From Dacryopinax spathularia (Eukaryota; Basidiomycota; Dacrymycetes; Dacrymycetales; Dacrymycetaceae), in NCBI GenBank assembly GCA_037974965.1, contig JBBPFI010000022.1:1-28000 (forward strand): 28,000 nucleotides of DNA, in the 5' to 3' direction. Of the stretch, positions 3,101-23,675 are shown piece after piece. Position 1 is the stretch's first letter; the number at the start of each line of letters is the position of its first letter. The translations under genes and the position numbers were made by a program. The notes below the pieces were generated by a model. That model was not told where the DNA came from. It searched no databases and worked only from the letters and a program-made list of their open reading frames with translations.

Positions 3101-4700
3101 CCTACCATGCCCAAATTCCTGTGCCAAGCGATTTGGCCCGAAAAACTACGGTGGCGGAGATACGGGAGCCACAAGATCGCTGCGCAGCCTGATTCTGCAA
3201 GTGCATGCGCCAGGCCACATCCAGCATATTATACCAGACTCCCAAGCCGTTCAACAGTGGCCTGGATATGTCGGACCAACTGGCAACAGTGATCGGGCCC
3301 CTCGCTGCCCTGGTTATGGAATCGCAGCGTTAACAATAATCTCACCAGGGTCTCACCTGCGGACAGCCTGCACGCGCCAAATTCACACCGCACCATATCG
3401 GTCCCATAAGCTAAGTTGATCGCCCCGTATGCCCTGGTACCCATGCCAAGCGGTTTGGCGAGGAAAATCACGGTGGCGGAGGTACGCACAGAGCAAGATT
3501 GCTGCGCACCCTGATTCCGCAAGTGCATGCGCCAGGCCACATTCAGCATATTATACTGTGCCCCCAAGCGGTCCACCAGTGGCCTGGATATGTTCAACCA
3601 GCCTGCAACCACAATCGGGACCCTGGCTACCCTGGTTATGGAATCGCAGCGATAGCAAACTTCCCGCAAGGGTCTCCCCTGCGGACAGTCAGCGCGTGCC
3701 CAGTTCACCCCTCACGCACTTGGTCCCATAAGCTAAGTTGCTCCCCTACCATGCCCAAATTCCTGTGCCAAGCGATTTGGCCCGAAAAACTACGGTGGCG
3801 GAGATACGGGAGCCACAAGCTCGCTGCGCAGCCTGATTCTGCAAGTGCATGCGCCAGGCCACATCCAGCATATTATACCAGACTCCCAAGCGGTTCAACA
3901 GTGGCCTGGATATGTCGGACACACTGGCAACAGTGATCGGGACCCTCGCTGCCCTGGTTATGGAATCGCAGCGATAACAATTATCTCACCAGGGTCTCAC
4001 CTGCGGACAGCCCGCACGTGCCGAGTTCCCACCTCACCATCCCGGTCCCATAAGCTAAGTGGCTCCCCTACTATGCCCTGACACTCATGCCTCGCGGTTT
4101 GGTTGGAAAAATTACGGTGGGGGAGATACGGACAAAAGAAGATCCAAGCACACCCTGGGATCACACACCTGGTACAAGCACATGCGCCATGCGACATCCA
4201 GCATATTATACCAGACTCCCAAGCGGTTCAACAGTGGCCTGGAGATGTCGGACCCACGGGCAACTGAATTCGGGACCCTCGCTGCCCTGGTTATGGAATC
4301 GCAGAGATCGCAATTGTTTGGCGAGGGTCTCACCTGCGGCCAGCCAGCGCACACCCAGTTCACCCCTCACCATCCCGGTCCCCTAAGTTCAGTTGCTCCC
4401 CTACTATGCCCCAATGCCTGTGCCAAGTGGTTTGGCCGGAAAAACCATGGGGGTGGAGATACGGGAGCGACAAGATTGTAGCGTACGCTGATTCTGCAAG
4501 CGCATGTGCCAGGCCACATCCAGCATATTATGCCTGACTCCCAAGCGGTTCAACAGTGGCCTGGATATGTCGGATCAACTGGCAATGGAAATCGGGACCC
4601 TTGCTGCCCTGGTTATGGAATCGCAGAGATCGCAATTGTTTTGCGAGGATCTCCCTTGCGGACAGCCAGCGTGAGCCCAGTTCACACCTCACCCCTTATG
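114..4700. repeat. Subtelomeric satellite, about 14 copies of a 322-bp unit
   Basis: A unit of about 322 bp recurs with landmarks such as 'agctaagttg' near 509, 833, 1155, 1477, 1799, 2121, 2443, 2766, 3088, 3410, 3732 and 4055, with further diverged copies starting near 183 and 4387. The copies between about 615 and 2420 are nearly identical. Copies at both ends, including the one next to the telomere, are clearly diverged. A base difference in 'atcgSgccc' separates the first three core copies (C at about 718, 1040, 1362) from the next three (G at about 1684, 2006, 2328). Short open frames recur in each unit on both strands, but they show no codon-level constraint beyond the DNA identity, so I treat the array as non-coding. 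It resembles fungal telomere-associated repeats. Confidence 0.93.
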
Positions 4701-4799: not shown

Positions 4800-7700
4800 T
4801 CAATTGCCAAGGTCAGCGAGCATCATCTCCTGCCACAACGCATCCTCATCTTCTGGCGCCTGCAAGGGACTCTGCTGCCCAGATGGCCCTTGCGAGCCCG
4901 TATCTCCCTTGGGGGTCGTTGCTGGCTCAGCAACTGGTGTTGCAACGTGGCCGGAAGTGGCAGGACTGGTGGCAGGCTTGGGGGAGCGGCGTGGCTGGGC
5001 TGATGGCGGGGTATTCATCTTGCTGTGGATGGGAGAGGCGCCTTGAGTACCTGGTGCCTTGGGCGAGATGGGAGCCTTGGGCGAGATGGGAGCCTTGGGC
5101 GAGATGGGAGCCTTGGGCGAGATGGGAGCCTTGGGCGAGATGGGAGCCTTGGGCGACCCTGCAGTCGATGTGCTGCCATGCTCTTGGGATTGGCTCGCCT
5201 GCTTGGGGGACATCACTGGGGAGGGTGCGTTTGGCTTGACCTCGCTCACCGCCTGCGGTAACCCCCCCAGGTGCTCTGGATTCAGCCCTGGTGTGCGGAT
5301 CACTGCAGGGGACCCAGACACTGCGGGTGAAACCGCTGGAGGCACTCCCCTCCCCTCCGGTGCAAGCGGCTGGATGTCTGCCTGTCCATGCACCGTGTCT
5401 GTCGGCTGGGCTGGGTTGGCATCAGGCTGGCTTGGGAGCGGAGTCGCTGCTTTGGGCATTGCCGGAGAATGCGCTGGCCCCGGAGACTGTGCACTCCCTG
5501 CTGGCTGTGGGGATGCCGAGTGCCCCACCGGGGTGATGGGAGTGGGCGTGATGGCGGCTGGCGGGATGGCCCCCACAGTGGTCAATGCCCCTGGGGCTGT
5601 GTGGGCTCTGGGGACACGGCCTGGCTGCTGGCGGGCCTTTGCAACCCAGGGATTAGTGAGCGGACTCTGCCCGCCAATGGCCTGTGCAAGCAAGGCCACC
5701 TTGCTTTGTTGCGCTATGGGATCGTCTGTGAGTGTCCTTGCCCAGCTGCCCCCCGCATGGCCATGCTCACCTTGCTCCCATACACGCTCAGCCTCCAGAT
5801 TAGCGGCCTCCTTGGCGGCTGCTTTATCCAGCTTCTTTGACTCCTTCCGTTCCTCCGCCCTCTTTTTTTCCGCCTCTGCCCGTTCCTCTGTCATCCCACC
5901 TCTCAGCAATGGCGCATGGGTGTGCAAGCTGCACTCACCTGGTGTCCGCGCGGCAACCTGCTTGCTTATTTCCTGCAGATGCCCAAACTCCTGCTTACCC
6001 TTGAGAAGACGTTGCAAGCCAGGATCATCTGGTTAGGCAACACCGATTGAGCATACACGTATAACCATACAGGAGCCTCACTGACCGGAGGAGACCACAG
6101 GAAGGCGTGCCTCTGCCTCTGCACGCACCGCCCTCATTACCTCTGACGCAGCCCTCAACGCTTCCTTGATCTCCTTCTCCTGGGCCTCCCTTGCTTTAGC
6201 CTCGCGCACCTCCTTCTCCTTTTTCTCCTTCTCTGCCCTCGCCGTCTCAGCACGCTGTGCCTGCTCCCGCTTGCGTCCAGAGCGTGCCACAACATCCTGA
6301 ATCTGCGCGTTCAGGTCCGCTTCCGTTGCAGGCGGCTTGCGGTACTGCGCAGGTTGCTCCAAGTTGGCATCTTCCTCATCACTGTCATCCGATTCAGTGT
6401 CCACTATGCCATCCACATCTGCCAGGGGCTTGGTGTGGATCGCCTCTGTACAGGGATGTCAGTCTAGGTGCACCATGCGCAGTCCATCTGAGCACACTGA
6501 CCTGCCATTGCAGCCTGCTCATGCGAGCTCACCGTACCCTTGAGGGCGCTCAAGAAATCCTGAGGGGATGCTGCGGGCTTGGCCGCGCTGGTCGGCTCCT
6601 CCTGCTGAGGTTGAGCTGGTGGGGCTGGCAGGGACTCGGTTGGGGCAACCTCGATAGCCGCAGACGGTGGCTCCTCATCTGAGATCTCCATATCGGTGAT
6701 CTCAGTCTGGTCCAACGGGGTGTCGATCGGAAGCCAGGCGGGTGCGGTGGGGCCTGGAATGGTGAGGAGGGAGGACAGATAGTCAGTCCCATCCGGTGTT
6801 GCCTCGCGTTGCGTTGCGGGGGCCTCTTCTGGCCCTTTGGCCTTCTTGCGTGGTGGCTTGGCCTGCTCTGCTGGGGCCTTGGGTGCGATGGAGGGCACCG
6901 GTTTGGGGGGTGCGGGTGCCGGAGGGGGCCGCTTGAAGAAGGCTGCATCCGCTGCTGTCGGGCCACGGACGGGACCACGCATTGCCGCCTTTGCCTGTGC
7001 TTCCTCTCGCTGCAGATCTTCCTCACTGCTTACCGAAGTCCTTGGACGCTTTAACATGCGTTTGGCGGCAAGAACCATGGAATCCAAGTTGTCATCATGC
7101 ACCTGCCCGATGAGCTCTATTACCTTTGGCATCTCGAGCTCGATGCCCTGGGACTGGAGCTCTGCCTGCCAGTATGCCGGAGTCTTGACCACAAACGATG
7201 TCACGCGATCAGGGCGTGGGCCGGTCTTGGGTGCGGACGAGGTTGGCGTGATCTTCTTGCCCTTGTCAGACTCGTTCTGGAGCTTTTGCAGCTTCACCGA
7301 GGTCGTTGCCATCTTGTCAAGGACGCGCTCAAGCTCCCGCTCATGCAGTTCGATCGCCTTGGGGAGGACCAAGGGAACCAGGAGTTGATTAGCCTGGGCC
7401 TTTACCTGGGAGGCCAGATCCTTGGCAACCTTCTTGAGACCTCCCACGCGTGTACTTGCCACAAGCTCTTTGAGATCGACCTCGCCCACCGAATGCTCGC
7501 TGTTGGCGTCTGCCTCATCCTCAATCTCCTCCTGCCGTGGGTGAAATGGCTGTCGCACTTGATGGCCTACGCGCCAGCTTGTGGGCACAGTGATCCGGTC
7601 GCGCATGCTGAGCTCGAGATCATCGGCCGTCTTGAAGAAGGGGGGGAGATACCTCTGGCGAGTCTCCAAGCTGCTCCCGGTCACCACACGGCGGAAGACA

Positions 7701-10192
7701 CGATCCCATCGAGGCACACGGATCAACGTGTCGAACAGGATTTGCGTCTTGACCTCCTCAGTGAGCATGTCGTTCAGGTGCTGCCTGAGGTTGTGTTGGC
7801 GGGAGGTCTGCCGCCCGCTTACCGGCACCAGATTGTCGAGGTAATGGGAGAGGACAGGCTGATAGTGTTTCCATGCCGATGGGAAAATCTCCTGCTTGGC
7901 TGGATCCCTTGATCCCGCTTGCCAGAACAACCAGTTGATCACCTGGGCTCGCACTCCCTTCCTCTGCTCCTCAATGGCAAGTAAGGGATGCAGGGGTGGG
8001 TTCTCCAGCATGGGTGTGACACCGGCCTCGACGTAGTGGAATGAACGCGCCATGTCAGTCAGACGGCGTGTCTCCATGAGTGGATTGTAGAGTTTTACCA
8101 GCGGATAGATTAACTCCATCCGCTGTGCCGTGTCCATCGCCCTCCATTCTGGCCAGCGTGCCCGATACTGGGCAATCTGACCCAGCGCGCCTTCAATCAT
8201 TGGACGCCGTGCGCCATCGTTTCGGTGGGCCCTTGGTCCCAGAATGGGGTACAGCGAGCACAGGCTCTTGCCGATCTGTGAGTTCCATCAGCGGTCAGAC
8301 CCCCCACCAGACTTCCTGCCATGCACCCACCATTTCAAACATCTCCGAAAAGTCTTCCATGGAATCAAACATCTGCTGGATGACCTTCGGGGCCATGATG
8401 AACAGGTACGGCCGCTTGGCATAGACCCCGGAGACATGGCTGATCAGTTGGAGGGCGGCTCTGCGCAAGTTATCATCCATCCGGATCTCCCGTGCCCCGA
8501 TCTGGATCCTGCGCTCCCCAGAGGCCATCGTCTGCCCAGCGCGGGCTAGGATCTCTGCGATGAGATCGCCTCCATTCCCCTCCTCCCCCTCTTCCCCCTC
8601 CTCCCCCTCCTCCTCAGTGTCCCCCACCTCCGATCCATCCTCATCCTCATCCTCTGCCTCTCCCTGTCCTGCCTCGTCGTCGGATCCATGGACAGGCGAC
8701 CGTCGCACATCCTTGGAAGATGGGCCACGGGATCTCGTCTTCTTGTAGGGCACCGAGTCCACCACACTTTCCGTCTGGAAACCAAACAGGTGGAGGAAGC
8801 GGTCAATAACGTGCCTCAGGAGGGGCCGCTTGGGTGACTGCTTCACCCAGGCCGCCCATGCCTGTTCCACGGCCACCTCCCAGCCATGCCGGAGGATCAC
8901 CGGATCAATCTTACGGGTGCGCAATGTTCCCGGTGCAAACTGCACGGCCTGATACCACAGTGAAGCCATCCAGCCCTGGTCTCCGAGTCAGCATATGGCT
9001 CACCCAGAAATTCAGACTGGTGCGGTTGCATACCTCAGCGTAATGGGACGCTTCCATGCGCTTGATGGTGCGCCAGCTGAGGTCATCCCAGCCAGGAATG
9101 TCAAACAACTTAACCAAGATCGTGCGCCAGTCGCGGTGATTGAAGATGCGGATGGCAAGAGCATCGCCCCCAAACTCCTTTTCCGCCATCCTCTGCCGAT
9201 TGGCCTCATCGGGGAAGTTGACAGTGTCGTTCAGGATTGCCCATGCTGTCTGGACCTGGTTGCGCATGTTCTGGGGGAGGTGCAGATCGACCCGGTTGCT
9301 CGCAAGATGATAGACCAAGTTGTTCGCCTCGGGATCATTCAAAATCGCTGGAGAACGCTCAGCCATTACGCTCTTGCAGAGCATAGTGATGCCACTCACA
9401 CTTGGGGAAGATGCGCGCAGGCCACCAGTCGTTGCGGTGGGCAAACTGCGGGTGGTCCTTCGGATTGTTGCCATACCAGCCGATCGCAAGCTCCAATGCG
9501 GCCAAGCGGTGGGCCCCTGCAAGCAAGATGGCCTGTGAGCGGTCCGCAAATTGGATAACGTGGCCCGGCACAGTGTCGTCCTTCCAGACCAACCGCTGAC
9601 CATTAATCTCCTCCAAGTTCAGGACCTGATCGGGATCGACAAGGATGACAATGTAGTTCTCACGCCGACGGAGCTCGCTGCCAAAGTCGGTAGCGAGCTG
9701 TTCTACAGCTGACTGATCGAGGCGACGGTTATATCGATGGTCGGTGCTGAAGGGATGCGCCGTATCGAGGACCACAAGGGCCTCACCGAGCAAGACCTTT
9801 TCCATTTCTTGCACCCAGTTGGGTGCGGACGTGTCGGCCTTACTGGGCTTGATTGCCCTGCTTGCCTTGCCGGTTGTGGCTTTGGCTGCCGAGGTCGCCC
9901 GGGCTGCCTTCTTGACCTTCTTGGTCGTGCTGGGGCTGGTGACGACGGCGGCCTCGGGCTCCATCGAGATGTCGCCCTCATCATCGAAGAGGTACTCCAG
10001 GTCGTCGGCCTCATTGATTGCCTGGGCGGACCCCACCGGAGGCCCCGCCGCACCCTCCATGGACAGGAGAGATCCTTCGGAGGGCGCATCGGCCATGACA
10101 ATGTCGGCCTGTGCCGTGGCACCTACCGCCTGCAACGGCACGTCGCGCGCAGTGGCGGAGAGTGGCGATTCTTGCGGGGGAATGTCGGACAT
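4800..10192 (-). CDS. Gene A: large nuclear-type protein with ParB/Srx-like N-terminal domain, paralogue of B and C
   Basis: Seven exons: 10192-9400, 9347-9004, 8948-8331, 8275-6502, 6445-6086, 6028-5939, 5887-4800. They sum to 5067 nt (1688 aa plus stop), all in frame. Introns are 51-57 nt with GTGAGT, GTGAGC, GTGGGT or GTCAGT donors. The start is the first ATG after the leader acceptor at 10206. Residues 1-130 are low complexity, acidic and then Lys/Ala-rich like a histone H1 tail. Residues about 150-264 resemble the ParB/sulfiredoxin fold, with GAHR at 226-229. Residues about 265-800 form the helical core shared with genes B and C, interrupted by a Glu/Asp-rich insertion at about 470-506. 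A predicted coiled coil lies near 860-930. The rest is Pro-rich, then Lys/Glu/Ala-rich helix (about 1220-1340), then a Pro/Ser tail with SPKAPI repeats. No catalytic domain was recognised in the tail. The fold assignment is moderate; the gene model is strong. A 51-nt in-frame intron (5888-5938) is the least certain junction. The function is unknown; a DNA- or chromatin-associated role is inference. Confidence 0.8.
5061..5150 (-). repeat. Exact 18-bp coding repeat (SPKAPI hexapeptide) in gene A
   Basis: Five back-to-back identical 18-bp units, with partial units on both sides, lie in the last exon of gene A. They encode repeated SPKAPI at about residues 1573-1602. SP-K is a minimal proline-directed kinase site and also resembles the S/TPKK elements of histone H1 tails. 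The copies are identical at the nucleotide level, including third positions, so the expansion is recent. Confidence 0.9.
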
Positions 10193-10400
10193 CGTAGTTA
10201 TCAAACTGAGTGCGCATGTCAGCATGCAGCGCAAAAAAGAACCAGAAAAAGCATTCGCTTCCTGCGCAGAGCGTTTCGCATGCGCAGGAATGCAACGTGC
10301 GTTTACTTACAGTTCAAAAAAGATATTCAAAGTCTAGCACAAAGTCAGCCACCGGCCAGGACAAAAGTGACGAAAACGGGACTTACCGAATCGAGGTAGC
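10193..10400 (-). other. Gene A 5' leader: two non-coding introns and a 23-nt exon
   Basis: On the minus strand a donor GTAAGT starts at 10386 just after 'cctcgattcG'. A branch-like 'gctgac' precedes a CTAG acceptor ending at 10334, giving a 53-nt intron. A 23-nt exon (10333-10311) ends in 'gaact' followed by a second GTAAGT donor at 10310. The second intron (105 nt) ends at the 'cactcag' acceptor at 10206, 13 nt before the ATG. The first exon-donor motif recurs at genes B and C, and the 'gaact' donor motif recurs at gene C. This supports real, homologous leaders. Confidence 0.6.
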
Positions 10401-10465
10401 AATCAGGAAGAGAGCTGTAAGCCGGCCTATAGGGGGGATCAGGGTCCCTATAGCCGCGTCGCGCT

Positions 10466-10607
10466 GCACAGCCTCCGTTAGAATACGTCGCGACGTATTC
10501 TAACGGTGGCTGTGCGTTAGAATACGTCGCGACGCATTCTAACGGAGGCTGTGCGTTAGAATACGTCGCGACGCATTCTAACGGAGGCTGTGCGTTAGAA
10601 TGCGTCC
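10466..10607. promoter_or_regulatory. Palindrome cluster upstream of gene A, 39-bp period
   Basis: Three copies of a 28-bp palindrome, with half-site GTTAGAATACGTCG followed by its reverse complement (one base varies in the right arm of copies 2 and 3), occupy 10477-10504, 10516-10543 and 10555-10582. A truncated fourth copy starts at 10594. The copies are exactly 39 bp apart. The first is part of a longer 50-nt inverted repeat (10466-10515) with one mismatched pair. The cluster lies about 80 nt upstream of the first leader donor, so it is in the promoter or start of the transcript. It could be an operator for a dimeric DNA-binding protein or a hairpin in RNA. Confidence 0.75.
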
Positions 10608-10655
10608 AATCAAATGGGCCGATTTGGTAACCCCTGTAATGGGCGCTTTCCCAGG

Positions 10656-10678
10656 GGGGGGAGGGGGGGGGGGGGGGT
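10656..10678 (+). other. Near-continuous G run
   Basis: A run of G with a single interrupting A lies between the gene A palindrome cluster and the minisatellite. It could form G-quadruplex structures. Its exact length may be unreliable because such homopolymers are prone to sequencing error. Confidence 0.6.
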
Positions 10679-10716
10679 CCGATGGTGCCCCCCTGGGCAA
10701 AAGGGCCGTCTGGGAT

Positions 10717-13700
10717 GTGACGGCCTCATCATTGATGTCGATTGTCTCGGCGGGGTACAGCGGCATGCGGATATCGGTGATAATAACAACCGTGTGCGAC
10801 AGGATGCCGGACACAGATGTGACGGCATCGTCATTGATGTCGATTGTCTCGGCGGGGTACAGCGGCATGCGGATATCGGTGATAATAACAACCGTGTGCG
10901 ACAGGACGCCGGACACAGATGTGACGGCGTCGTCATTGATCTCGATTGTCTCAGCGGGGCACAATGGCATGCAGCGCCGCTGGTCCGCCCCCCCCCCCCA
11001 CCCCCAACCTGGTCGACTGATAATAACAACCGTGTGCGACAGGATGCCGGCGTGAAAGAGGTCTTTGTGATTGTCGATTGTGTCAGCGGCACAACGTGAC
11101 GCCCGTCAAAGACGTGAACGACGTAGTCGTGGGTGTCGATTGTCTGAGCGGCACGACGGGATGCCCGTGAAAGATGTGAATGCGGTCGTCGTGGATGTCG
11201 ATGGTCTCAGCGGCACCACGCGATGCCCGTGAACGATGTCGATTGTCTCAGCGGTGCAACGTGACACCCGTGAAAGACGTGAACGACGACGTCGTGGAGG
11301 TCGATTCTCTCAGCGGCGCGACGGAATGCCCGTCAGAGATGTGAACGACGTCGTCGTGGATGTTGATTGTCTCAGCGGCGCGACGGGATGCCTGTGAAAG
11401 ATGTGAATGCGGTCGTCGTGGATGTCGATGGTCTCAGCGGCACTACGCGATGCCCGTGAAAGATGTCGATGGTCTCAGCGGCGCGATGCAATGCCCGGGA
11501 ACGATGTCGATGGTCTCAGCGGCGCGATGCAATGCCCGTGAACGATGTCGATTGTCTCAGCGGTGCAACGTGACACCCGTGAAAGACGTGAACGAGGTAG
11601 TCATGGATGTCGATTCTCTCAGCGGCACGACGGGATGCCCGTGAAAGATGTGAACGCGGTCGTCGTGGATGTTGATTGTCTCAGCGGCACGACGGGATGC
11701 CCGTGAAAGATGTGAACGACGTCGTCGTGGATGTTGATTGTCTCAGCGGCGCGACGGGATGCCTGTGAAAGATGTGAACGCGGTCGTCGTGGATGTCGAT
11801 TGTCTCAGCGGCACGACGGGATGCCCGCGAGAGACGTGAACGACGTCGTCGTGGATGTCGATTCTCTCAGCGGCACGACGGGATGCCCGTGAAAGATGTG
11901 AACGCGGTCGTCGTGGATGTCGATTGTCTCAGCGGCACGACGGGATGCCCGTGAAAGATGTGAATGCGGTCGTCGTGGATGTCGATGGTCTCAGCGGCAC
12001 TACGCGATGCCCGTGAAAGATGTCGATGGTCTCAGCGGCGCGATGCAATGCCCGGGAACGATGTCGATGGTCTCAGCGGCGCGATGCAATGCCCGTGAAC
12101 GATGTCGATTCTCTCAGCGGTGCAACGTGACACCCGTGAAAGACGTGAACGAGGTAGTCATGGATGTCGATTCTCTCAGCGGCACGACGGGATGCCCGTG
12201 AAAGACGTGAACGAGGTCGTCGTGGATGTCGATTGTCTCAGCGGCACGACGGGATGCCCGTGAAAGATGTGAACGCGGTCGTCGTGGATGTCGATTGTCT
12301 CAGCGGCACGACGGGATGCCCGTGAAAGATGTGAACGCGGTCGTCGTGGACAATGGCATGCAGCGCCGCTGGGCCGCCCCCACCCCCACCCCCAACCTGG
12401 TCGACTGATAATAACAACCGTGTGCGACAGGATGCCGGCATGAAAGAGGTCTTTGTGATTGTCGATTGTGTCAGCGGCACAACGTGACGCCCGTCAAAGA
12501 CGTGAACGACGTAGTCGTGGGTGTCGATTGTCTCAGCGGCACGACGGGATGCCCGTGAAAGATGTGAATGCGGTCGTCGTGGATGTCGATGGTCTCAGCG
12601 GCACTACGCGATGCCCGTGAAAGATGTCGATGGTCTCAGCGGCGCGATGCAATGCCCGGGAACGATGTCGATGGTCTCAGCGGCGCGATGCAATGCCCGT
12701 GAACGATGTCGATTGTCTCAGCGGTGCAACGTGACACCCGTGAAAGACGTGAACGAGGTAGTCATGGATGTCGATTCTCTCAGCGGCACGACGGGATGCC
12801 CGTGAAAGATGTGAACGCGGTCGTCGTGGATGTCGATTGTCTCAGCGGCACGACGGGATGCCCGTGAAAGATGTGAACGCGGTCGTCGTGGATGTCGATT
12901 GTCTCAGCGGCACTACGCGATGCCCGTGAAAGATGTCGATGGTCTCAGCGGCACGATGCAATGCCCATGAAAGATGTCGATGGTCTCAACGGCGCAACAC
13001 GATGCCCGTGAAAGACGTGAACGATGTAGTTGTGGATGGCGATTGTCTCAGCGGCACAACGCGATGCCCGTGAAAGATGTCGATGGTCTCAGCGGCGCGA
13101 CGGGATGCCCATCAAAGATGTCAAAGACGTAGTCGTGGATGTCGATTGTCTCAGCGGCGCGACACAACGCCCGTGAAAGACGTGAACGACGTAGTCGTGG
13201 ATGGCAATTCTCTCAGCGGCGCGATGCAATGCCCGTGAAAGATGTCGATTGTCTCAGCAGCGCGATGCAATGCCCGTGAATGATGTTGATTGTCTCAGCG
13301 GCGCAACACAATACCCGTGAAAGATGTCGATTGTGTCAGCGGCACGATGCAATGCCCGTGAAAGATGTCGATTGTCTCAGCGGTGCAACGTGACACCCGT
13401 GAAAGACGTGAACGAGGTAGTCATGGATGTCGATGGTCTCAGCGGCGCAATGTGATGCCCATGAAAGATGTGGATTGACTCAGGCACGCAACGGGCTGCC
13501 CATGAAAGACGTGAACAACATAGTCATGGATGGCAATCGTCTCCGTGGTGCAACGCGACACCCGTGCAAGACGTGAATGATGTAGTCGTGGATGTCGATG
13601 GTCCCAGCGGTGCACAAGGGCATCCCAATACGGGCAATAACAGTCACCATGTGGAACGGGATGCCTGTGAAAGACATGAAAGATGTAGTCATGCATGTCG

Positions 13701-13860
13701 ATTGTCTTTGTGGTGCGACATGATGCCCATAAACGATATGAAAGATGTAGTGGCGCATGTTCATTGTCTCAGCGGGGTACAATTGTGTCTGGGTGGCGCA
13801 CAGCGTGACAGAGGTCATGAATGTCAAGCATCGTAGCGGGGTACAATGCCATGCAGTACC
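10717..13860. repeat. GC-rich minisatellite of 41-, 62- and 102-bp related units
   Basis: The stretch between genes A and B is an array built on a core 'gatgtcgattgtctcagcgg'. The left edge has three 102-bp units starting at 10717, 10819 and 10921. The bulk mixes 41-bp units and 62-bp units; the latter equal the 41-bp form plus a 21-bp segment 'gatgtgaacgcggtcgtcg..'. The right edge beyond about 13450 is degenerate. Neither 41 nor 62 is a multiple of three, so open frames through it are not conserved as protein. No gene is seen here. Confidence 0.92.
10964..11152. repeat. Higher-order duplicated block in minisatellite (copy 1; copy 2 at 12351-12539)
   Basis: A segment beginning 'caatggcatgcagcgccgct', containing a C-rich run and 'ggtcgactgataataacaac', recurs almost unchanged at 12351-12539. 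The block is not a simple multiple of the small units, so a longer stretch of array was duplicated. Another block of about 290 bp is present three times, near 11360, 11917 and 12521. Confidence 0.85.
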
Positions 13861-14034
13861 TGTGACTGCCATGAGTAACATACCAGGCACTGTCCATGAT
13901 GCCCTGCGATGTTCTGCCCAGGTGCTGATCGCTCTGCAGTGCTCATAGGGACATGTCATTCCTAAGGCTAATGGGCCAGCACATCATTCATCCCACCATG
14001 GCGGGGCTATCTATGCAATCGATTGTAAACCTCT

Positions 14035-17000
14035 TCAGCCACTATCCTCCTCCGATCCTGACTCGTCCTTGGCTTTCTTAGCCTTCTTCCTTGGGGGTGG
14101 AGAGGGACTGCTTGCAAATCCGGAGCGCGCCTTATTGGCTGAGCGGGTGAGGATACGGGAGGCATGAGGCCGCGCGACTGGGCTGCTCTCCTGACCGAGA
14201 GGGCCGGGATCACGCGCAGACCGTGGCTGAGTGCGATCTAGACCATCCATGAAGTCAGATTGGGGGGGAGAAAAGCATGAAGAACGTGTACCCTGGCGCC
14301 GGGCAGGCCGTGTGGTCTGCCTCCCAATTTTAGCCGGTACCTCAGCGGTTTGGCTGTCCTCACGATCCTCTGGATCTCCTTTGTCTTGGCCGGGTGGCCT
14401 CCTTGCAGAGGCCACCCGGGTGTTCCCGGAACGAATAGCTGCTGCGGTCACTAAAGCGCTTGATCAGCAGACAACCCACCGGTCAATGGGCGCACGCACA
14501 CATGGGAGCGTGCTCTCGGTTGTCATCTGCATGTGCACGGTCAAAGATGGCCTTCAGGCGCCCCCGCTCAATTGGGGTCACCTTGGGCAGCCCCTTGATT
14601 GACTTCTGTTCCACGGGCGCCTGGTCAAAGAGTGCCTTGATACGGCCATGCTGACCTGGGAGTGGTCCATAAACCTTGCGTGGTGGGCGTGGGCTCCCCA
14701 AGGCGGGTTCGGAAGTGGGCTCCTGCACCGCGGCCCTCCTCGGCGGGCGTGACTGCCTGCGGCGTGGGCGAGGTGCAGGAGTGGGGGTATCTGGTGGCGC
14801 ATCATCGGTCTCGGAAGAGGGTAGCATGCTTGCCAATTGCTTCCCATCCGGGTGCATGCTCTGAGCATGTTCACCCAGGGCGCCTTGCTCGTCCACGGTC
14901 TCACTCTGGACGGGCAAAGGAGGGGCCACTGGGATGCTGGCCCCTACACTGGCCGCTTCGGTCACGGTCAAGAAAGAGGCCCCGCTCACTTGAGGTGTCT
15001 CAGGCACCCATGAGCTCGGTGGCACGAGCAAGGTGGGTGGTGCATGCTCTATGCGCTCCATGGGGCTCATCGGTGGAGGGCCTGGCACCTGAGGAGGGGC
15101 CGCACCATTGCCAAGGACATGGTGGATGACATTGAGCAGCTGCGGAGAGCCATGAGATCAGATGGCTGGGCTCTCCGGGAAGGGGAGAGGACCCACAGAG
15201 GCAATGTGCTCTTGGACTTCCAAGTGCTCAAACACTGAGGATGGCAGCAGCCGACCGAGTGCAGCCATCACCTGCTCGGCCAGCTCACCCAGTTGAGGGG
15301 CGTCAGCAGGAGCTGGTGCTGCGTGGGAGCTCATCGGCAGGTGCAACTGGAGCGCTCCCACCGGAAGGTTGCCTGGCTGGTCACCCTGCAAGTCCAGCTG
15401 TCCAGCCTCGGCGGTAGGCAGCGCATGGGGGGAAGATGACTGGGATGATGGGGTGCTAGCCGGGGAGGCCCCAGCAAGGAGCAAGTCTTCAAACCTGGCA
15501 AGCACATCATTGGCCACTGAAAGATCTGCTCCAGGACATCCACTCACGGGTAGGGCAGGATGACATGAGGACCTGACCTTGTGCCATCACGCAAATACTC
15601 AAACAACCTTTGCCAGGCGGGGCACTGGGCGAGGTGGATCAAGAAGATGCGGTACTTGGGTGCTTCCGAGAGGACACGCAGGACGCCAAGTGTGAGCGCA
15701 TCGTGGCGCTGCCCGGGCTCAAAGCCTTGCATATAGAGCACAAATCGTCGGAACAGGGGGGCAACGCTGTGCCATTCCTGTGGGCAGGCCGGCCGGGCAG
15801 GCTGAGGACGGCCCCGCTGGGAGTCGATCACCTTCTGAACGAACCATGCCACCTGCATGCAAATGGCTTTGAACACCGCGGTCCCTTCCTTGGTCACCAG
15901 ATCACTCCCTGCGGCAACAATATCCGCCGCATGGGCAGCCCCTATGCGGTGATAAGACTGGTTTAGGTCCCGCCACCATGCGACCTCTGTGAATGGGTTG
16001 AGGTCAGCAACCATTTTGCGCCACGCCTGTGCACGCTCAGGGGGGCTCATCGCATGCACCTGCGCAACAGTGTGGAAGAGGTAGAGGACATGCCATAGCA
16101 CGCCTGGGATGGACCGCCTACGCTCATTCGGATTGGGCGGTGAGGGCAGGCGGAGCATGTACGACCCATTCAAATACTGTCCGATCTGGAACATGATCAG
16201 AGTGCGTCAGCGATGCACGTGTGTTTGGCCAACGTACCATGCGCAACATGGGCTGAAATTGATCCACATAGGCGAGGACACGAGGGAAGCTGTATGGATT
16301 CAGCTGGACCGCCCATGGGGTCTTCTTGGCCGCAAGGAGCAGGCTCAGACGAAACATGGTCGCCTGCACACGATCCTCACGTGGCACCAACTTGCGCTTC
16401 ACAGGCAGGTCAAACCCCATGTCCTCAGGAGGGTAAAACTCGGCGGGGATGCTGGCATATTCTTCCGCTTGCAGCTTTGCCAGGAGAGCACGGAGGCGTG
16501 CGATCCGCTCCTCCAAAGTATCGGCCACCACACGCGTTTCAGGGAAGCCAAAGTAAGCCGCCAAGCGTTCATCGAGCAGGAGCGCAAGGGGCGTGGGACC
16601 CCGATACTCTGTCCACGCCTGCATGCTGCCCAGCTCAGGCCCATCGGGGGTGTGCAATGCCTCCCAGAGGGCAAATGCATCGTCCACGATGGCCAAATAG
16701 TCGCGGTGGACAATGCGCGGATGATGCCAGGGGCGCTGTGTGAGATGGTTCACCGTGACCATCTCGATCGTACGCTCAATGAGGACCTGCCAGCCCTGGA
16801 AAAGCACCAGATCAACGGGGACCTCACAGAGGGTGCAGAGGGTGCGTACCTCGCAATAGTCAGAATCAAATGCCTCGATCAATGGGGCAATGTCATGCAC
16901 AATGTCCCACCGTGGCAGCCCCAGGAACCGTGGGAGGACGTCACGTGCACCAGGATGCATGAACAGGCGGATCAGGTCGGGATGATTGTTCAGTTCCAAC

Positions 17001-17761
17001 ATGGCGAGGGCGATGCGCTGTTGTTGGTCGCGTTCGGGGTGCGCATCATACTCCTTGCAGGCCGCAAGAAACTTGGACATCATCGGTGTCGGCTGAGTCA
17101 CAAGACGGCGGTTGGTGCGGATCTGGGCATAGAAGGCCTGACCGGCCAAGGAAGTGGCGATCGCTGGGGGTGTGTGTCAGTCTGTGGATGGCAGAGGCAC
17201 ATAGGCACATACTGGCATCCAGCACGACCACAGGCCACCACGCGGTCTGGGTCCGTGGATTGTCGGCATGGTGGAGGGTGTGGAGGAGGAGGATCGCATG
17301 ATACCGTTGGACACCATCCAATACGGTGACCTGTGTCAGATCATGGAACATCACCCATTCACTTGGCTGGAGATCGGTCGTGACCACGTTCTCACGGGGG
17401 CTCATAAGAACAAGCGGGTGGTGGGTGCGGTGCAAGCCGTAGAGCATAGAGTGATACAACCGCATCACGGTGGCATCTTGGGGTGGGTGATCAAAGACCG
17501 GATGCGGGGTCTCCACGTTGCAGGCGAATCGGGCCTGACACAGAATGAACGGGGCGATCATCGGCTGGAACTCGGCAAATTCGTCTTGTTCTGCCTGCTG
17601 AAGGCGCTCAGAGAGCGGGGCCAGAGGGGTAATCTGCGAGTCTGGCCAAAGACCGCTGTCGTTAACTGCGGGTCGGCCAGATAGCGTCTGCGTGCGCATC
17701 CGGCATCAGGAAAGATGGGACAGGACGGTGTCGTGCGACTTACATTGACAGGGGTTGACAT
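14035..17761 (-). CDS. Gene B: ParB/Srx-like domain protein with Pro-rich tail, paralogue of A and C
   Basis: Eight exons: 17761-17744, 17687-17213, 17163-16850, 16795-16238, 16185-15548, 15494-15197, 15139-14500, 14441-14035. They sum to 3348 nt (1115 aa plus stop). The first coding exon is only 18 nt. Introns are 49-58 nt. The 54-nt intron at 16796-16849 keeps the frame open, so it is easily missed; removing it aligns the flanking 'DYCE / GWQ' with 'AYCD / GWY' of gene C. Residues about 60-170 resemble the ParB/sulfiredoxin fold, with VTVLDGVQR ending at 134. Residues 170-668 are the helical core, with a conserved PTPLALLLDERL segment matching PTHIGLIVDERL in gene C, and IGQYL at 456 just after a conserved intron. 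Residues about 668-1115 are Pro/Ser-rich and end in a basic RKKAKKAK then acidic run, a plausible nuclear localisation signal. There is no protease domain. Junction positions near 16800 may be off by one base. The function is unknown. Confidence 0.8.
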
Positions 17762-17763
17762 GA

Positions 17764-17898
17764 CTGCACCAAGTCGTCAGCCCATACTGCTGATGGCATA
17801 GCCGCGGTACATGCACAGCCACCGTTAGAATACGTCGCGACGCATACTAACGGTGGCTGTGCGTATGCCGCGGCTATGTAGGCATAAATGGGACTTAC
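17764..17898 (-). other. Gene B leader intron containing an 82-nt hairpin
   Basis: The minus-strand donor GTAAGT at 17898 follows 'ccttgatttG', matching the leader donors of genes A and C. The acceptor 'gtgcag' ends at 17764, two bases before the ATG. The intron is 135 nt, against about 50 nt for coding introns here. The excess is accounted for by an imperfect inverted repeat at 17797-17878 whose arms start 'catagccgcgg' and whose centre is the same GTTAGAATACGTCG-type palindrome (17824-17851) found upstream of A and C. Confidence 0.65.
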
Positions 17899-18253
17899 CA
17901 AATCAAGGTAGGAAGGCGTGGAAGAGGAGCAAGTGGGCCCGGATGCAGTGCGGCTGCATGCATGTAAAGACCCTGGATGTGGCACATGCGCATTCCATGG
18001 CGCATGTCTGTGCACGCGCCGTGTGCGCATGGCACACGCCCTGCGCGCAATGTGGGTGCGCACATGGGGAATCTGTCCGGCGCATGGGACATTCATCGAG
18101 GGTCCCAGTGTGCGCTATCTGACCGCAACGGCATGCACATCGGTGGGAGACTCTGCGCCGGCTCTTTTCTCCGCACGTTGCCATGCCGATCTCAACAACG
18201 ATATGCACATGTACATTGCTGGCATTTACATTCTATTCACATTGCGCTATGCT
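17899..18253. other. Intergenic region between B and C
   Basis: This holds the promoter or first leader exon of gene B and the 3' end of gene C. It is rich in 'gcgcat' and 'tgcgca' words. I see no convincing coding frame, RNA gene or larger repeat. Confidence 0.5.
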
Positions 18254-21200
18254 CTAGCTAGATACTTGGCCTGGTACTGTGGGGTCCTCGGGCAAAGTGA
18301 GGGCGAGGCGGAACATCCAGTTGCGCATTGCCTGTATCTGTGCTGGCGTGGTCATCGATGACATCTCCCTCCCGCGAAGCAGTGCAAGGGTGTGCGCTAG
18401 CACCCACACCCCGCAGTCGCTGGCATTGCGCTGGTGGGGCACCTGGTGGGAGCATGAGCGAATGGACCCGAGCACGCATGCGTGCACATACCTTGACCCG
18501 CCGGACATGCCAATTGGACCACTGCTTGCCAGGGAAAGGGTTTCCGCTATAACGGAAGATGGTTTCCAGGATGGCCTGCACCCGCTGTATATATGGTCAG
18601 TCCATGTGATTGCACATAAGTGAGGAACGTACACCAAGGGGCTCTGCCTCGATGGCGTGGAGAAACGAGTCATAAATCAAGATGTGGCACGACTCCCAGT
18701 CCACACGGTAGAGGTACCAATGACTGTTAAAGAGGAGGGGGATAAGCCACCGTCTGTAGGACCTCAGACGGCGTGCCTCCGGGTCGGGTGTGCCCTCCTC
18801 AGGAGGGATGTGCCAGTTTAAGATCCAATTGGTGTACCACCGCTCCAGATCTTCCAGCGACTTAATCAAGTCCTCGTTGAACATCGAGATGGCCATAGCA
18901 GTGATGGGTGCTGCATGGACAGGTGGAGGCGTCAGGCCCTCCGGTTTGCCAAGGAGCCACAGGTTCGTCATATCGGACAGGTTGAACTGGCTGAGCCATT
19001 GGTCGCCCAGGAGGTTCTTAAGCTCCCCTACAGTCATCTGAATCACGCATGATCCCTCAACATATTTGCGGCCCGACTCGATTTTTTCCTGGCGCCCACG
19101 TGGGGGCGCCTCGGGTGGTGTCCACGAGTCAAGGTCGGACTGCAATCCCGAGTGAGCCAGGCTGTTGAACACGCAGTCCAGTGACTTACAATGACAAGCC
19201 AGCTGGAGTCGTGCTGGATGGCAGTACGGGCACCTGCGGAGACATGGATAGGGTCGTTCCATGGGTGGAACGTGCGGACAGGAGGGGGATGGTCAGTGAC
19301 AATGGCCACCGCGGGCGAGGAACCGCGCGAGCTGGGGGGGTTCACCTGTGCAGGCGGAGAACCGTGCCCACTATCTGGGCTCTTAAACCGGGGTGGGCCT
19401 GAGACCGGACTGGGCAGGAGGAGCTTGGCCTCATTCACCGTTTTCTCCAGCTTGGCATGCAGCCGCTCTTGTGAGGTCTGCATCGGCTTCATAGGCTGCT
19501 CTGATCCATTCCCCGGCTTGGGTCGGCCTGGCTTGTCTTCCTGTTGCGTGGACGCAAAGAGTGGGCGTGGGCGGGGCTGGGATGGCACCTTGCTCTTCTG
19601 GTTGACGGGGGGCAATGGCGATGGGGTGGCTGGTTTGCCTGCACGTAACAGCGTGGACCGGACCTGCTGGTCAATCGTGGGGCCGCTGCTCCGGACATCT
19701 GGTGGCGGCACTGTGGTATCCCTGTTAGCACACCATGCAATGAGTCACCACACACGTGCTTACAAGAAGGCATCTGGGAGACAGGAGTGGGGCGGGCCGC
19801 TGGGGTGGTGTGAGCGGGGCGCGCTGCAACAGAGTCCCGGTCATCGTCAGAAGTCACAGTGTCCTTGGACTTGTACACTACATGCAGAGTGAGCACAGTG
19901 AGCGGACACAAGACAAACACATGCTCACCTTTCTTGGTGCGGGACCGGGTCTCAATCTTGCGTGGCTCCGATGCCACTTTATCCTCCTTGTCAGAGGAAG
20001 AGGGCTCATACTCTGCATCACCACCTGCATATGGCATGAGCGGACAAAGGCCACAGCAGTCAAGGGACAAGGTGCCTACGCTTCCGTTCCTGGGCACGGC
20101 GACGATGCCTGCGAGCAGCTTCCCAATTATCGCGGTATTCAGCTTCAGCACGCCGTCCTGGTCGCACATCGTGAGGGCAGCATGCACAGGACATGGACAG
20201 ACACTCACGCTCAGCTTCCTCTGCATTGTTTGCTGGCGGGTTGGGCTTCGTGGGCCGAGGTGGGCGCGCCTGCGGGGGCCCAGAGGCCACGCGGACCCGT
20301 TTCACGGCTGGCTTGGGAGGTGCGGCCGGTGGAGCAGGAGCAGGAACAGCGGTAGATGGTGGAGCAGGCCCAGCTGCGGCGGTCGTTGGGAATCCGGATC
20401 CATCCAGGGAATGCTCTCGCTTCTTGCTGGTCGCAGGAGGCTCAGTGCGGATGGGCGGGGGTGCAGGCGGCAGAATCTGCGGAGGCCAGTGCGCCTTGGC
20501 AGCGACCCCCCTGGATGCAGTGTAGAGCAGCTGTGAAGACGGATTAGCGGCACGTCACATGCAAAAATCACTGCAGGCAGACCTCAAGCAAGGGTGGGAC
20601 AATGGCCTCCTTATCGGGAGTCTGGGGGAATGACTGGATCACCGTGGAGTGCAAGCGCTCCACCGCATTAAACTCAGCCTGCGTGGGGACCTCAAGGAGA
20701 GGTGCATCCAGGCTGTCGGCGATACTGGCGTGAAAAGGCAGCTTGACGGGCACCTGGTCCGGGGGCACCAAAGAGTCAAGGTAGCGAAAGATGGGGCGCC
20801 AGAGCTGGGTGCGTGCAAGATGGGCACAGAGCGTGCGGAAAGGGATATCGTGCGCAGTCACATGTTGGACAAGCGCAAGGAGTACCGCATCCACCTGCGT
20901 GGGCGGGTGGTTTTGGGTGAACAGATGGGCATGCAGGAACTGGATCCGCCAATAAGGCCAGACCGCATGGGGTGCAGGGGGAGGTGGCAGGGGCTGACGA
21001 TGGAGGCGGGCATTCATGCGGGCAAGCATGGACTTGAGGCTGGAAACCAGGATCTCGACCAGGTTGGCAGGAGCATGGGCCGCCACGGTCTCTGGACTGG
21101 TGACGGTGTGCGTCTTTGCGTACTCTTCCACAAAGAGCTGGGTCAGGTACAGCGTGTGCATGTCCAGCAACCGTGATGAAACATTGAACCGGTCAACAAG

Positions 21201-22814
21201 CGCGTGCATGATGCCATCGCGCTCGTCAGGGGGCTCGGAATACCAGGCTTGAGGGGTCCCACGGAGGGAGGCCAGTTGATGCAGAAGGCCGGGAACAGCC
21301 TGCTTGTGGCGGAGGGGAGGGATGTCGGAGGCTGTTCGCAAGGGGTAGCCAGGGATCACGTAGTGCCCGACCTAGTCACCATCAAGGTGCCATCCTGTGG
21401 AAGGAAAAGGGAAGACTCACCAGGTTGAGCAGCGGGTCAAAGCGCTTCATGCAGACAACCGCATGGGTCAGCAGCCAGGGTGTGAGAATCATGGCCCACG
21501 GCGTCTCCATCAGACCGCTCAGGATGGCGATGCGCAGGCGAGTGGACTGAAGCAATTGCGACCGCGGGATCGGAATCGGGGCAAAGTGAAAGCCATGCTC
21601 AGTCAGGGGCTGGTATTGCACTGGGACATGTTGCAAGCCGGCATCGATTTGGTCTTGAAACCGCCTGAGACGGGCGAGTCTTTCCACGGGACCATCCTTG
21701 ACATCCAACGTGTGTGCAAAGGTGCCGTAGAGATATGCAAGGCGCTCGTCCACAATCAATCCAATGTGGGTCGGCCCACGGTAGGCCGTCCTCTGCTGGA
21801 TCTCGGGGGTGACCTCAAAAGGGGTGGATTGGAGGAGATACTGGATGTGGAACGCTTGATCGGTTGCCGCAAAGAACAAACTGTTCAATGCATCCAGCCA
21901 AGGGGGAAGAGTGGGAGCATCAAGGCCGAGAAGCTCGATGTGGCGCTGAAGCAAGGTATACCAACCCTGGAGGAGGGATGAGCAAAGGGACAGGGAAGCA
22001 CAGAAGGGCTCACATCGCAATAGGCGCCATCAGCAGCATGGAGGAGAATGGCAATGTCAACGGCATTAGACCATGGGAAGGTCATGAAGAGCATCGGGAG
22101 AATGGCACGGGCAGGTGCGTAGCTGAAAAGGCGGCGACCGTGAGGGCTGTTATGGAACTCCCTCAGGGCCTGCGCCAACGCCTCCTGGTCATTCTGGGCC
22201 TCGCTGTTGATGTACGTGTCATGGGCCGCCATGAAGTAGACACGCAGGGGGGTGGGGCGGGAGACCGAAAGGCGATTGGAGCAAATGCGCAAGTAGACCG
22301 GACGCAACTGCGCGTGGTGCTCAATCGCACTATCGAGGACAATGACCGAGAAAACCGGACCACGGAGATCGGCGGGGAACAAATGGGGATAGTCGTACTT
22401 CTGGATCCAGAGGGCCTCGAGCGCCTTGATGCGTTTGACTCCATCGAGGACGGTCACCTCGGTGGTGTGGAAGAACTGGACAAGAGGCGGATAACTGTGG
22501 GACCAGTTGACGGGAGCCACCGCAGCAGGCTTGACGTTACTGCGGGCGGTCATGAGAACGATCGGATCATAGCCCAAGCCATAGCCCTCAAGCAGAGAGA
22601 TGAGCAACGCAAAGGAGTTGCCTCCATTGTCATGCTCAAATCGGAAGGGCTCGGTATCGGCAGTGAGCATGAAGGAGCCTTGCGTGATCACATGAGGCTG
22701 GAGCAGCGAGTGAACAACCTTGAACTGCAGCATGGCCTCTGCGTCAAGTTCACTGCGTAGCGCATCCAGGGCGGGATCACCGGAAACGGGGACTGTCGGT
22801 GTCGGGTTGGACAT
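18254..22814 (-). CDS. Gene C: ParB/Srx-like N-terminus fused to a C-terminal Ulp1-type (C48) SUMO-protease-like domain
   Basis: Eleven exons: 22814-22014, 21966-21421, 21371-20583, 20530-20209, 20157-20080, 20024-19929, 19877-19764, 19710-19190, 19139-18633, 18584-18492, 18442-18254. They sum to 4056 nt (1351 aa plus stop). Residues about 40-165 resemble the ParB/sulfiredoxin fold with VTVLDGVKR (DGVKR at 124-128). The helical core continues to about 712, with VGHYV at 450 after the intron shared with A and B. Residues 713-1089 are Pro-rich with basic patches and several small exons. Residues about 1110-1351 form a Ulp1/SENP-like peptidase. His1229 lies in NSHWYLYRVD, Asp1246 in IYDSF, Gln1293 and Cys1299 in HQRNASDCGVW. 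The His-Asp spacing (17) and Gln-Cys spacing (6) equal those of yeast Ulp1, so the catalytic set looks intact. The expected activity is cleavage of SUMO or another ubiquitin-like protein; this is not shown. The donor at 20582 (GTCTGC) is weak; other junctions are canonical. Confidence 0.83.
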
Positions 22815-23134
22815 TGTCGAAAGCCTGGATAGGAATGAATCAATCAGAACTCGTGGGACAAGAGGAGACGATGCGTGCGGGTGGAAAAGAGGGAAAGGGG
22901 GATACTCACAGTTCGCGTGTGAGTATCAAGAATGCACTATAACATGGGCGTGAGCATATCGATTCACAGAAAAAGAAAGCGATGCAAGCCCACGCGCGCG
23001 CGCCGGGGCCGCAAGACTGCAATAAAGAGAACACAAAAGGACACTTACAGATGGTAGAAGCAAGATGCTACAGTACAAAGATATTAGCACAGCCGCGATA
23101 GAATAGAACGAAAATGCGACTTACCGAATCGAGG
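22815..23134 (-). other. Gene C 5' leader with two or three non-coding introns
   Basis: The donor GTAAGT at 23124 follows 'cctcgattcG', the same motif as in gene A. A branch-like 'gtgctaat' and a TGTAG acceptor end the intron at 23068 (57 nt). A 19-nt exon (23067-23049) is followed by another GTAAGT donor at 23048. A further donor GTGAGT at 22909 follows 'gcgaact', as in gene A, and the acceptor 'tatccag' at 22825 leads to the ATG ten bases on. The acceptor paired with 23048 is uncertain; 'gttatag' near 22938 is one candidate. Confidence 0.5.
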
Positions 23135-23202
23135 TGAAGACCAGGAACAAGATGCACTGTCAGCCACTGGCTGACAAGGGTCCCTATAGCCGCGTCGCAT
23201 AT

Positions 23203-23320
23203 GCACAGCCACCGTTAGAATACGTCGCGACGTATTCTAACGGTGGCTGTGCGTTAGTATACGTCGCGACGTATTCTAACGGAGGCTGTGCGTTAGAATG
23301 CGTCGCGACGTATTCTAACG
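23203..23320. promoter_or_regulatory. Palindrome cluster upstream of gene C, 39-bp period
   Basis: Three copies of the GTTAGAATACGTCG-type 28-bp palindrome start at 23214, 23253 and 23292, exactly 39 bp apart. The first sits within a perfect 50-nt palindrome (23203-23252) whose arms extend outwards as 'gcacagccacc'. The flank 'gggtccctatagccgcgtcgc' just beside it is shared with the gene A cluster, so the two upstream regions are homologous. The cluster lies about 80 nt upstream of the first leader donor of gene C. Confidence 0.8.
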
Positions 23321-23376
23321 AAGGCTGTGCGGCAGCCTCGCGGATGCCCATTCGGTATGAGCGATATGCGACAGGA

Positions 23377-23426: not shown

Positions 23427-23675
23427 ACGCTTGGTAATGCAACCATGCGGCATAAATGGAACCTTCCCGGGCATGCCAGTGGCTTCTGCCTTTCTCCCCC
23501 GCATTCCACCCCGATTGGGCAAGTCCGGAAATGGGAAGAAGGAGGGCTGGGTATGTCTTGTCAGGGTGAGAAGGGCATACGCTGAGTGTCTTGCAGCATA
23601 CAAAGGATGGGCCGTGCGGCGTACGAGTCTGATTCAGACGAAGACATAAGCTTTGTGCCCCCGGGGGCAGGCAAT

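Follow-up and report, generated by a model that had tools for sequence, protein, structure and literature searches.

Organization of the window

The window analysed here, a stretch of 28,000 nucleotides from Dacryopinax spathularia, is the complete contig C22 of a 29.2-Mb genome assembled in 24 contigs (cited below as C1, C2 and so on). It consists of a chromosome end adjoining a copy of a mobile unit, designated type W, which carries gene D. Between the telomere and D lie three spliced genes on the minus strand, A, B and C. Units of this kind have an exact inner terminus, while on the outer side they either run into a telomere or are truncated by the next unit, and a Helitron-like mode of transfer is proposed for them below. 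The following features were located in the window (a caret marks a join or an insertion site throughout).

1-113: telomere repeat (ACCCTA)n, chromosome end, 18.8 perfect copies (Tandem Repeats Finder, TRF)
327-4693: subtelomeric satellite with a 322-bp period, 13.5 copies (TRF)
4800-10192, minus strand: gene A, with a ParB/DGQHR-like N-terminal region (a lead only) and a long low-complexity tail; spliced open reading frame (ORF) with relatives on C1, C6, C16 and C17
10380-10397, minus strand: shared leader with splice donor, gene A; exact consensus match
10466-10606: array of palindrome CGTTAGAATACGTCGCGACGTATTCTAACG with a 39-bp step, upstream of A (palindrome scan)
10714-13543: second tandem-repeat block with 41-, 62- and 103-bp units, between A and B (TRF)
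14035-17761, minus strand: gene B, paralogue; spliced ORF
17797-17878: palindrome of 82 bp with arms 88% complementary, between leader and ATG of B (palindrome scan)
17892-17909, minus strand: shared leader, gene B; 2 mismatches
18260-22814, minus strand: gene C, paralogue; spliced model from 22814 to about 20060, 3' end approximate
23118-23135, minus strand: shared leader, gene C (consensus search)
23201-23331: palindrome array between C and D (palindrome scan)
23600: point at which the C17 copy (98% identical) breaks off and is followed by the inner end of a unit of a second type; target ...GCAT^ACAAAGG
24882-28000, plus strand: W-type gene D, truncated at the end of the contig and with an approximate start (comparison with other W copies)

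The first-pass annotation had described A, B and C as a subtelomeric gene family. They do form such a family, but the description was incomplete, and a plain subtelomeric gene family was set aside as an explanation after D, the palindromes and units with an exact terminus had been found to accompany the genes.

Genes A, B and C

Gene A was predicted to comprise a spliced ORF from an ATG at 10192 to a stop at 4800, coding for 1687-1704 amino acids and interrupted by 5-6 introns. The predicted frame of gene B runs from 17761 to 14035 and codes for 1097-1115 amino acids, depending on two junction choices, while that of gene C starts at 22814 and stays open for at least 868 amino acids to 20060, the model of its last exons being incomplete. 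A single frame from ATG to stop, as had been claimed for all three genes, was thus obtained for A and B but not for the whole of C. Coding introns in the models measured 47-58 nt, except for the first B intron, which measured 56 or 110 nt. The intron noticed earlier at a common site was recovered directly before IGKSL in A (8276), IGQYL in B (16186) and VGHYV in C (21372), and a second shared intron was found to end before GWMAS, GWQVL and GWYTL, respectively. The PT...DERL segment was likewise present in B and C. A leader, ACCTCGATTCGGTAAGTC, is common to the three genes on the minus strand, at 10397 (A), 17909 (B, 2 mismatches) and 23135 (C), in agreement with the earlier picture of spliced same-strand paralogues with a common leader structure. 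Elsewhere in the 243 kb compared it was found at one place with 3 mismatches, at position 23508 of the window on the plus strand. The tail of gene A contains a perfect 18-bp repeat (5.6 copies, 5056-5156), which encodes a repeated SPKAPI unit.

In direct comparison B matched C with an E value of 8.8e-11 over 97 amino acids, and A matched B weakly (E 0.008 over 42 amino acids). A profile of the A group (A and its relatives on C1, C16 and C9) aligned in hhalign with a profile of B and C at a probability of 99.0 (E 2e-18), whereas 20 column shuffles used as controls all gave values of at most 0.6. These similarities argue for a shared ancestry of A, B and C beyond chance. The earlier annotation was right in seeing here an old paralogous family with conserved splice sites next to a telomere. 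In a six-row alignment the G and R of a G-x-x-R motif and the N of an SNR motif were invariant. Gene A matched genes on C1, C17, C6 and C16 with E values of 6e-14 to 1e-9. A search of the window's own genome placed relatives of A-C mostly at contig ends, and they accompany D at C1, C6, C16 and C17; matches of the T3 type defined below were found on C5, C14 and C21.

Similarity to ParB-like proteins

No named family had been recognised for the full architecture, and this still holds. Pfam and NCBIfam gave nothing above their curated thresholds for the exons and domains of A, B and C that were scanned, and a PDB profile search with the family gave zero sequence matches at E 10. The G-x-x-R motif recalls ParB and DGQHR/DndB proteins. 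A match to the NCBIfam model DGQHR (E 0.0022, 17.8 bits versus a cut-off of 58.85) was obtained with the C1 protein only, one of six tested and none of the window proteins. Pfam DndB matched the C1 protein with E 0.12, and a PHROG ParB-like model matched one of the six proteins with E 0.18. Other sub-threshold matches of the A exon pointed in different directions, such as to a Schlafen-type helicase model (E 0.004). A significant profile match to the ParB/sulfiredoxin-like superfamily (ParBc, DGQHR) was therefore not obtained, the best E value being 0.0022. The likeness to the DGQHR/DndB and ParB families (TIGR03187, PF14072, PHROG 1033) lies in the G-x-x-R motif and in the position of the weak match within the domain; the difference is that the matches are far below curated cut-offs. 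The A/B/C family may be ParB-like, which is a lead and not a finding, and the term is used below in this sense.

Gene D and unit types

A D copy of type W at C2:44548-50373 reaches an inner terminus, ...GGTATAGAT. D comprises about 1,000 amino acids in aligned exons plus a C-terminal part and is larger than the ParB-like gene. Zero relatives above threshold were found for D in Pfam or PDB (PDB profile search: none at E 10), and none of 106 pattern matches in viral contigs searched for D was confirmed.

Four unit types were distinguished: W (the window), the C1 type (C1, C17 and C6), T3 (C5, with its own ParB-like gene) and C16. D exons of the W, C1 and C16 types are 38-68% identical to one another, and their identity to those of T3 is about 30%. 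D points inward in the W, C1 and T3 types and outward in C16. D is flanked on its telomere side by the ParB-like gene at C1, C5, the right end of C6, C16, C17 and C22; exon matches suggest the same order at the left end of C14 and on C21, and the reverse order at the left end of C6. In the C1 type, the ParB-like gene and D were copied as one block at C1, C17 and C6 (97.5-98.9%). Judged from these sequences, A, B and C would be the outer part of the W unit, which would then read telomere, satellite, ParB-like genes, palindromes, D, palindromes, inner terminus.

Palindromes

The W palindrome CGTTAGAATACGTCGCGACGTATTCTAACG occurs next to each of the genes A-D as well as close to the inner end. 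Each unit type has a palindrome of its own, CGAACCCATCACGAGCTCGCGCGCGAGCTCGTGATGGGTTCG in the C1 type and GGTGGGACGAGGAACATGTTCCTCGTCCCACC in C16; T3 has one 24-bp palindrome upstream of the ParB-like gene and shorter related inverted repeats near the inner end. Inverted blast matches between unit ends proved to be these palindromes and not terminal inverted repeats, and a DNA transposon with such repeats was rejected. A parS-like partition system, suggested by the ParB-like motif together with palindromes, was retained only as a possible binding mode. It was demoted because the same palindrome is present in two Helitrons near which no ParB-like gene was found (tblastn at E 0.01, 10 kb around).

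The palindromes also bear on the question whether A, B and C belong to the unit at all. They might be host telomere or chromatin genes, for example for end-binding proteins, that reside in the subtelomere beside a separate mobile D unit. In favour of this, a second A-C copy beside a W-type D was not found, and an internal subgroup of three ParB-like copies (C2:1115334, C9:439483 and C2:2532209), 71-82% identical in the domain and of lower GC content (0.51), has no D gene detectable in the 10 kb read per locus. This subgroup lies in duplicated blocks without palindromes of at least 26 bp, a scan of the three loci (30 kb) giving one palindrome of 24 bp, and it may represent a different kind of mobile unit or a form adopted by the host. 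However, ParB-like genes adjoin D at C1, C5, C6, C16, C17 and C22 and bear the palindrome type of their own unit where read (C1, C16, C17 and C22). They were copied together with D at C1, C17 and C6, and telomeres cut them at C1 and C16. Host genes are accordingly a quite improbable explanation, and A, B and C are treated below as candidate parts of the W unit.

Inner termini

Alignment of copies gave the exact inner ends ...CCCCTGTAGGAT, ...GGGGTATAGAT and ...CCTATAGAT; the C16 inner end, ...GTATTAGAT, was determined by eye from one copy. Genome-wide pattern searches with the first three ends found 30, 15 and 10 copies, 55 together, and a reversed control pattern gave zero matches. Read outward, all four types show TC joined to a host A (A^TC), as do the 5' ends of Helitrons; the three search patterns contained the TC bases, so that their conservation among copies is partly built in. 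Inward orientation was found for 54 of the 55 termini (P 1.6e-15). The distance to a contig end was at most 10 kb for 26 of them, at most 25 kb for 44 and at most 60 kb for 53 (P 1.5e-57). Both P values rest on the generous assumption that the copies are independent, although some were spread by segmental exchange. The termini occupy 28 contig ends, namely 27 of the 36 ends of C1-C18, plus C21. Among the 54 flanks read (C13:21229 was left out) 51 were distinct, and four C3 copies share one, indicating that the same base was joined many times. The final 33-42 nt of the four termini contained no stem of at least 5 bp; the termini are therefore not canonical Helitron 3' ends, and no poly(A) was seen at them.

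Two tandem copies of the final ~140 bp of the C1-type inner end were found at C6:1790585-1790865, at a distance of 135 kb from the end of the contig. They adjoin a C1-type unit with one stop in the D frame, apparently an old array that is now internal.

Target junctions and telomere caps

Fifteen junctions were informative, their target being a copied segment whose intact form is known, mostly another unit. Terminus and target overlapped by at least 2 nt (AT) in 14 of the 15, compared with 5.0% by chance, and by at least 3 nt (GAT) in 9, compared with 1.6% at random. Two extra junctions gave one pass for AT, aligned by eye, and one failure, which brings the total to 15 of 17 and corresponds to insertion at A^T. 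Only one side of each target survives, and at the joins within arrays that were read (C17, C5 and C14) no distal part of the target was seen. Telomere repeats are joined directly to the unit interior at C1, C5, C12, C14 and C16. One T3 outer end, with its degenerate telomere, is common to the left end of C14 and the right end of C5.

Ordinary exchange between subtelomeres, through ectopic recombination and break-induced replication in which breaks recur close to a fragile palindrome, could also leave joins of this kind. Such exchange does occur here, as is shown by near-identical blocks (97-99%) that recur on several ends and by the one flank common to four C3 copies. The same base at 51 different flanks and the AT rule nevertheless point to site-specific joining, and the W and C1-type palindromes are ~100 bp or more away from the join. 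As the source of the exact joins, exchange appears unlikely.

Comparison with telomeric retroelements

A telomere-attaching retroelement in the style of HeT-A, terminons or MoTeRs was the explanation favoured first. An RNA ending in ...GAU would be copied onto a broken chromosome end, with whose final bases it would pair, by a reverse transcriptase (RT) that is either supplied in trans or is D itself, unrecognised as an RT. The constant inner end, the head-to-tail terminal arrays, the outer truncation and the join overlap of 2-4 nt all fit end-primed reverse transcription, and the genome contains 57 RVT_1 matches. Four of these lie between an inner terminus and a contig end, beyond the units read (C16:823871, C3:2584039, C3:2587496 and C3:2606894). 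The C16 match and one of those on C3 score near-identically to many internal copies of one family and are likely later insertions.

No RVT_1 match was present in the units read, although an extremely diverged RT is conceivable, and Pfam scans of D revealed no RT; above threshold, D matched nothing in Pfam or PDB. The C16 unit has D reversed relative to the inner end, the termini have no poly(A), and the joins read lie in non-telomeric DNA. Introns are retained in the D copies compared at C1, C2, C16 and C17, which argues against a D mRNA as the template. The retroelement was demoted because the units read have no RT, their introns are kept and their terminus is A^TC; we now regard it as unlikely. 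As far as the accounts of HeT-A/TART (PMC5537684), MoTeRs (PMC7367193), FoTeRs (PMC12857005) and terminons (PMC6431247) were available, the units resemble these elements in their end arrays, constant inner end and truncated, telomere-capped outer end, and differ from them in that no RT was found in the units read, in the AT joins within non-telomeric DNA and in the kept introns.

Relation to Helitrons

Two Helitrons coding for RepHel, an HUH nuclease with a PIF1 helicase, were found in the genome, at C15:88155-92817 and C1:2178003-2182581, with matches to Helitron_like_N (E 8e-63 and 3e-64) and PIF1 (E 3e-74 and 3e-75), respectively. Their 5' starts are A^TCTACTA (C15) and A^TCATAAA (C1), and the W palindrome lies ~75-80 bp inside both 5' ends. 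A 60-bp block in five W copies shares 80-82% identity with the 5' end of the C1 Helitron. The 3' end of a Helitron is formed by CTRR with a hairpin ~12 nt inside, and a host T follows. An outer end with CTRR and hairpin was not found in the units; a telomere or the next unit stands there.

Helitrons of Pleurotus are described in the relevant passages of PMC4289320 as having a 5' TC, insertion at AT and a subterminal hairpin. For the reconstructed Helraiser, the pertinent sections of PMC4778049 report that the 5' end, with TC joined to a host A, is essential, while the 3' end is dispensable and read-through occurs. In Oscheius tipulae, helitron-like genes are reported to be confined to subtelomeric extensions, and helitron-like sequences are present on 11 of 12 telomere extensions (PMC8022731); the parts of that paper which were accessible describe no termini or joins. 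The units have in common with Helitrons, including as far as described those of O. tipulae (PMC8022731), the 5' TC after a host A, the A^T target, palindromes near the end and cargo genes. They differ in that neither RepHel nor a 3' CTRR end or 3' hairpin was found in the units read, in the inward orientation of 54 of 55 termini and in carrying two other gene families.

Searches of the open-licence literature for telomeric or subtelomeric helitrons returned only the O. tipulae paper (PMC8022731). Those for ParB-like in combination with telomere, fungal or transposon returned only a paper on Ectocarpus (PMC12477816), and those for Helitron with ParB returned the Ectocarpus paper plus a false match. 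The term ParB in a Microbotryum paper was, in the portion seen, a table header for pseudo-autosomal regions.

Proposed mechanism

With a probability of roughly 0.55 we favour, as the simplest one that covers these data, the explanation that the units are Helitron-like elements for which the chromosome end serves as the second end and which spread by one-ended transfer, replacing the distal arm. The units would be rolling-circle elements with a functional 5' end, the inner terminus at host A^TC, and without a 3' end of their own. A nuclease of the RepHel type would nick the 5' end; since no RepHel gene was found in the units read, mobilisation in trans is assumed, perhaps by a Helitron that shares the palindrome. 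The displaced strand would extend to the chromosome end, its 3' end being the telomeric G-strand, and its 5' end would be joined to the target A^T. The second strand would then be filled in and the old distal arm lost. Only inward events near an end would survive, which would account for place and orientation without a targeting device, and broken copies would be healed by telomerase. The exact terminus, the AT target, the orientation, the lack of distal DNA at the joins read and the telomere caps are observed. The enzyme, the strand, the assignment of A-C to the D unit and the functions of A/B/C and D are parts of this scheme that we infer.

A, B and C are probably element-encoded accessory DNA-binding proteins, which may act at the palindromes by their own promoters, at the D promoter and at the inner end, with D as their conserved partner. 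A precedent for the accessory role is the Ectocarpus element Sola1-1, an algal transposon encoding ParB-like proteins which, in the passages at hand (PMC12477816), are proposed to bind their own DNA. Here as there, a eukaryotic transposon would encode a protein with a ParB-like domain on the strand opposite to the main gene. A methyltransferase domain was not found in the exons scanned here, the type of transposon is another one, and the ParB likeness is a lead.

Rolling-circle transposons are known to skip their 3' end. If the scheme is true, the end skipped here is the chromosome end, and a transposon can rebuild or replace chromosome arms without a reverse transcriptase. The one-orientation arrays and the fast turnover of subtelomeres would then have a reason. 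The conserved families A/B/C and D would gain a testable context, and since one and the same genome contains exact joins at 28 contig ends, much of the mechanism would be legible in the sequence. The further-reaching idea is that the units form a class of eukaryotic mobile element which has given up its own second end and employs the chromosome terminus and the telomere in its place. One-ended rolling-circle transfer, replacing the distal arm, would be carried out by or with D and ParB-like proteins that read type-specific palindromes, an enzyme set not known from any transposon. This idea is tentative and rather doubtful.

A number of observations weigh against Helitron-like transfer. The inner termini share with the Helitrons just A^TC and a short similarity. 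The Helitron block in the W copies is oriented opposite to the terminus of W itself and could be an unrelated insertion. Among the 26 sequences read in a tblastn search for RepHel, only the internal Helitrons on C15 and C1 were positive, and none in the units. The palindromes also occur at gene promoters and may function in regulation rather than transposition. A second A-B-C copy was not found, as the other W copies end before gene C, and for this reason A-C are assigned to the D unit on the basis of the palindrome they share with it, their adjacency and the parallel of the C1 type. The ParB-like assignment consists of a motif and sub-threshold matches. Two C6 termini are 135 kb away from the end, and one terminus, C3:2613873, points outward. 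The contig has no telomere there, and the flank of this terminus is shared by three inward copies, which suggests an inverted duplication or an assembly join. Two of the 17 junctions lack AT. Of the 14 AT junctions, 9 extend to GAT (expected 0.32, P 0.013), an excess that extension primed by RNA or DNA at broken ends would produce as well. To these points are added the limited independence of the copies and the four RVT_1 matches near contig ends mentioned above.

Additional observations

A satellite related to the 322-bp satellite of the window was detected by blastn at C17:4745-7599, outside the ParB-like gene (~74-84%), and is the sole likeness of C17 to the distal window. The repeat block at 10714-13543, which separates A from B, contains units with GATGTCGATTGTCTCAGCGGC cores and had zero matches of at least 150 bp to the other loci compared. 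A run of 15 G (10663-10677) and a run of 12 C (10988-10999) lie beside this block near the A promoter and are possible assembly or G-quadruplex spots. At C5:2124219-2127977, between the T3 unit and the telomere, a tandem repeat (APAEASFSEALEAYWIYNIAPT...) is open in one frame for ~1,250 codons. On C18, a helicase gene (Helicase_C E 1e-16, DEAD E 3e-11) is located at 7200-9500 on the minus strand, at a distance of ~7-9 kb from the contig end; it is reminiscent of the subtelomeric helicase genes of other fungi.

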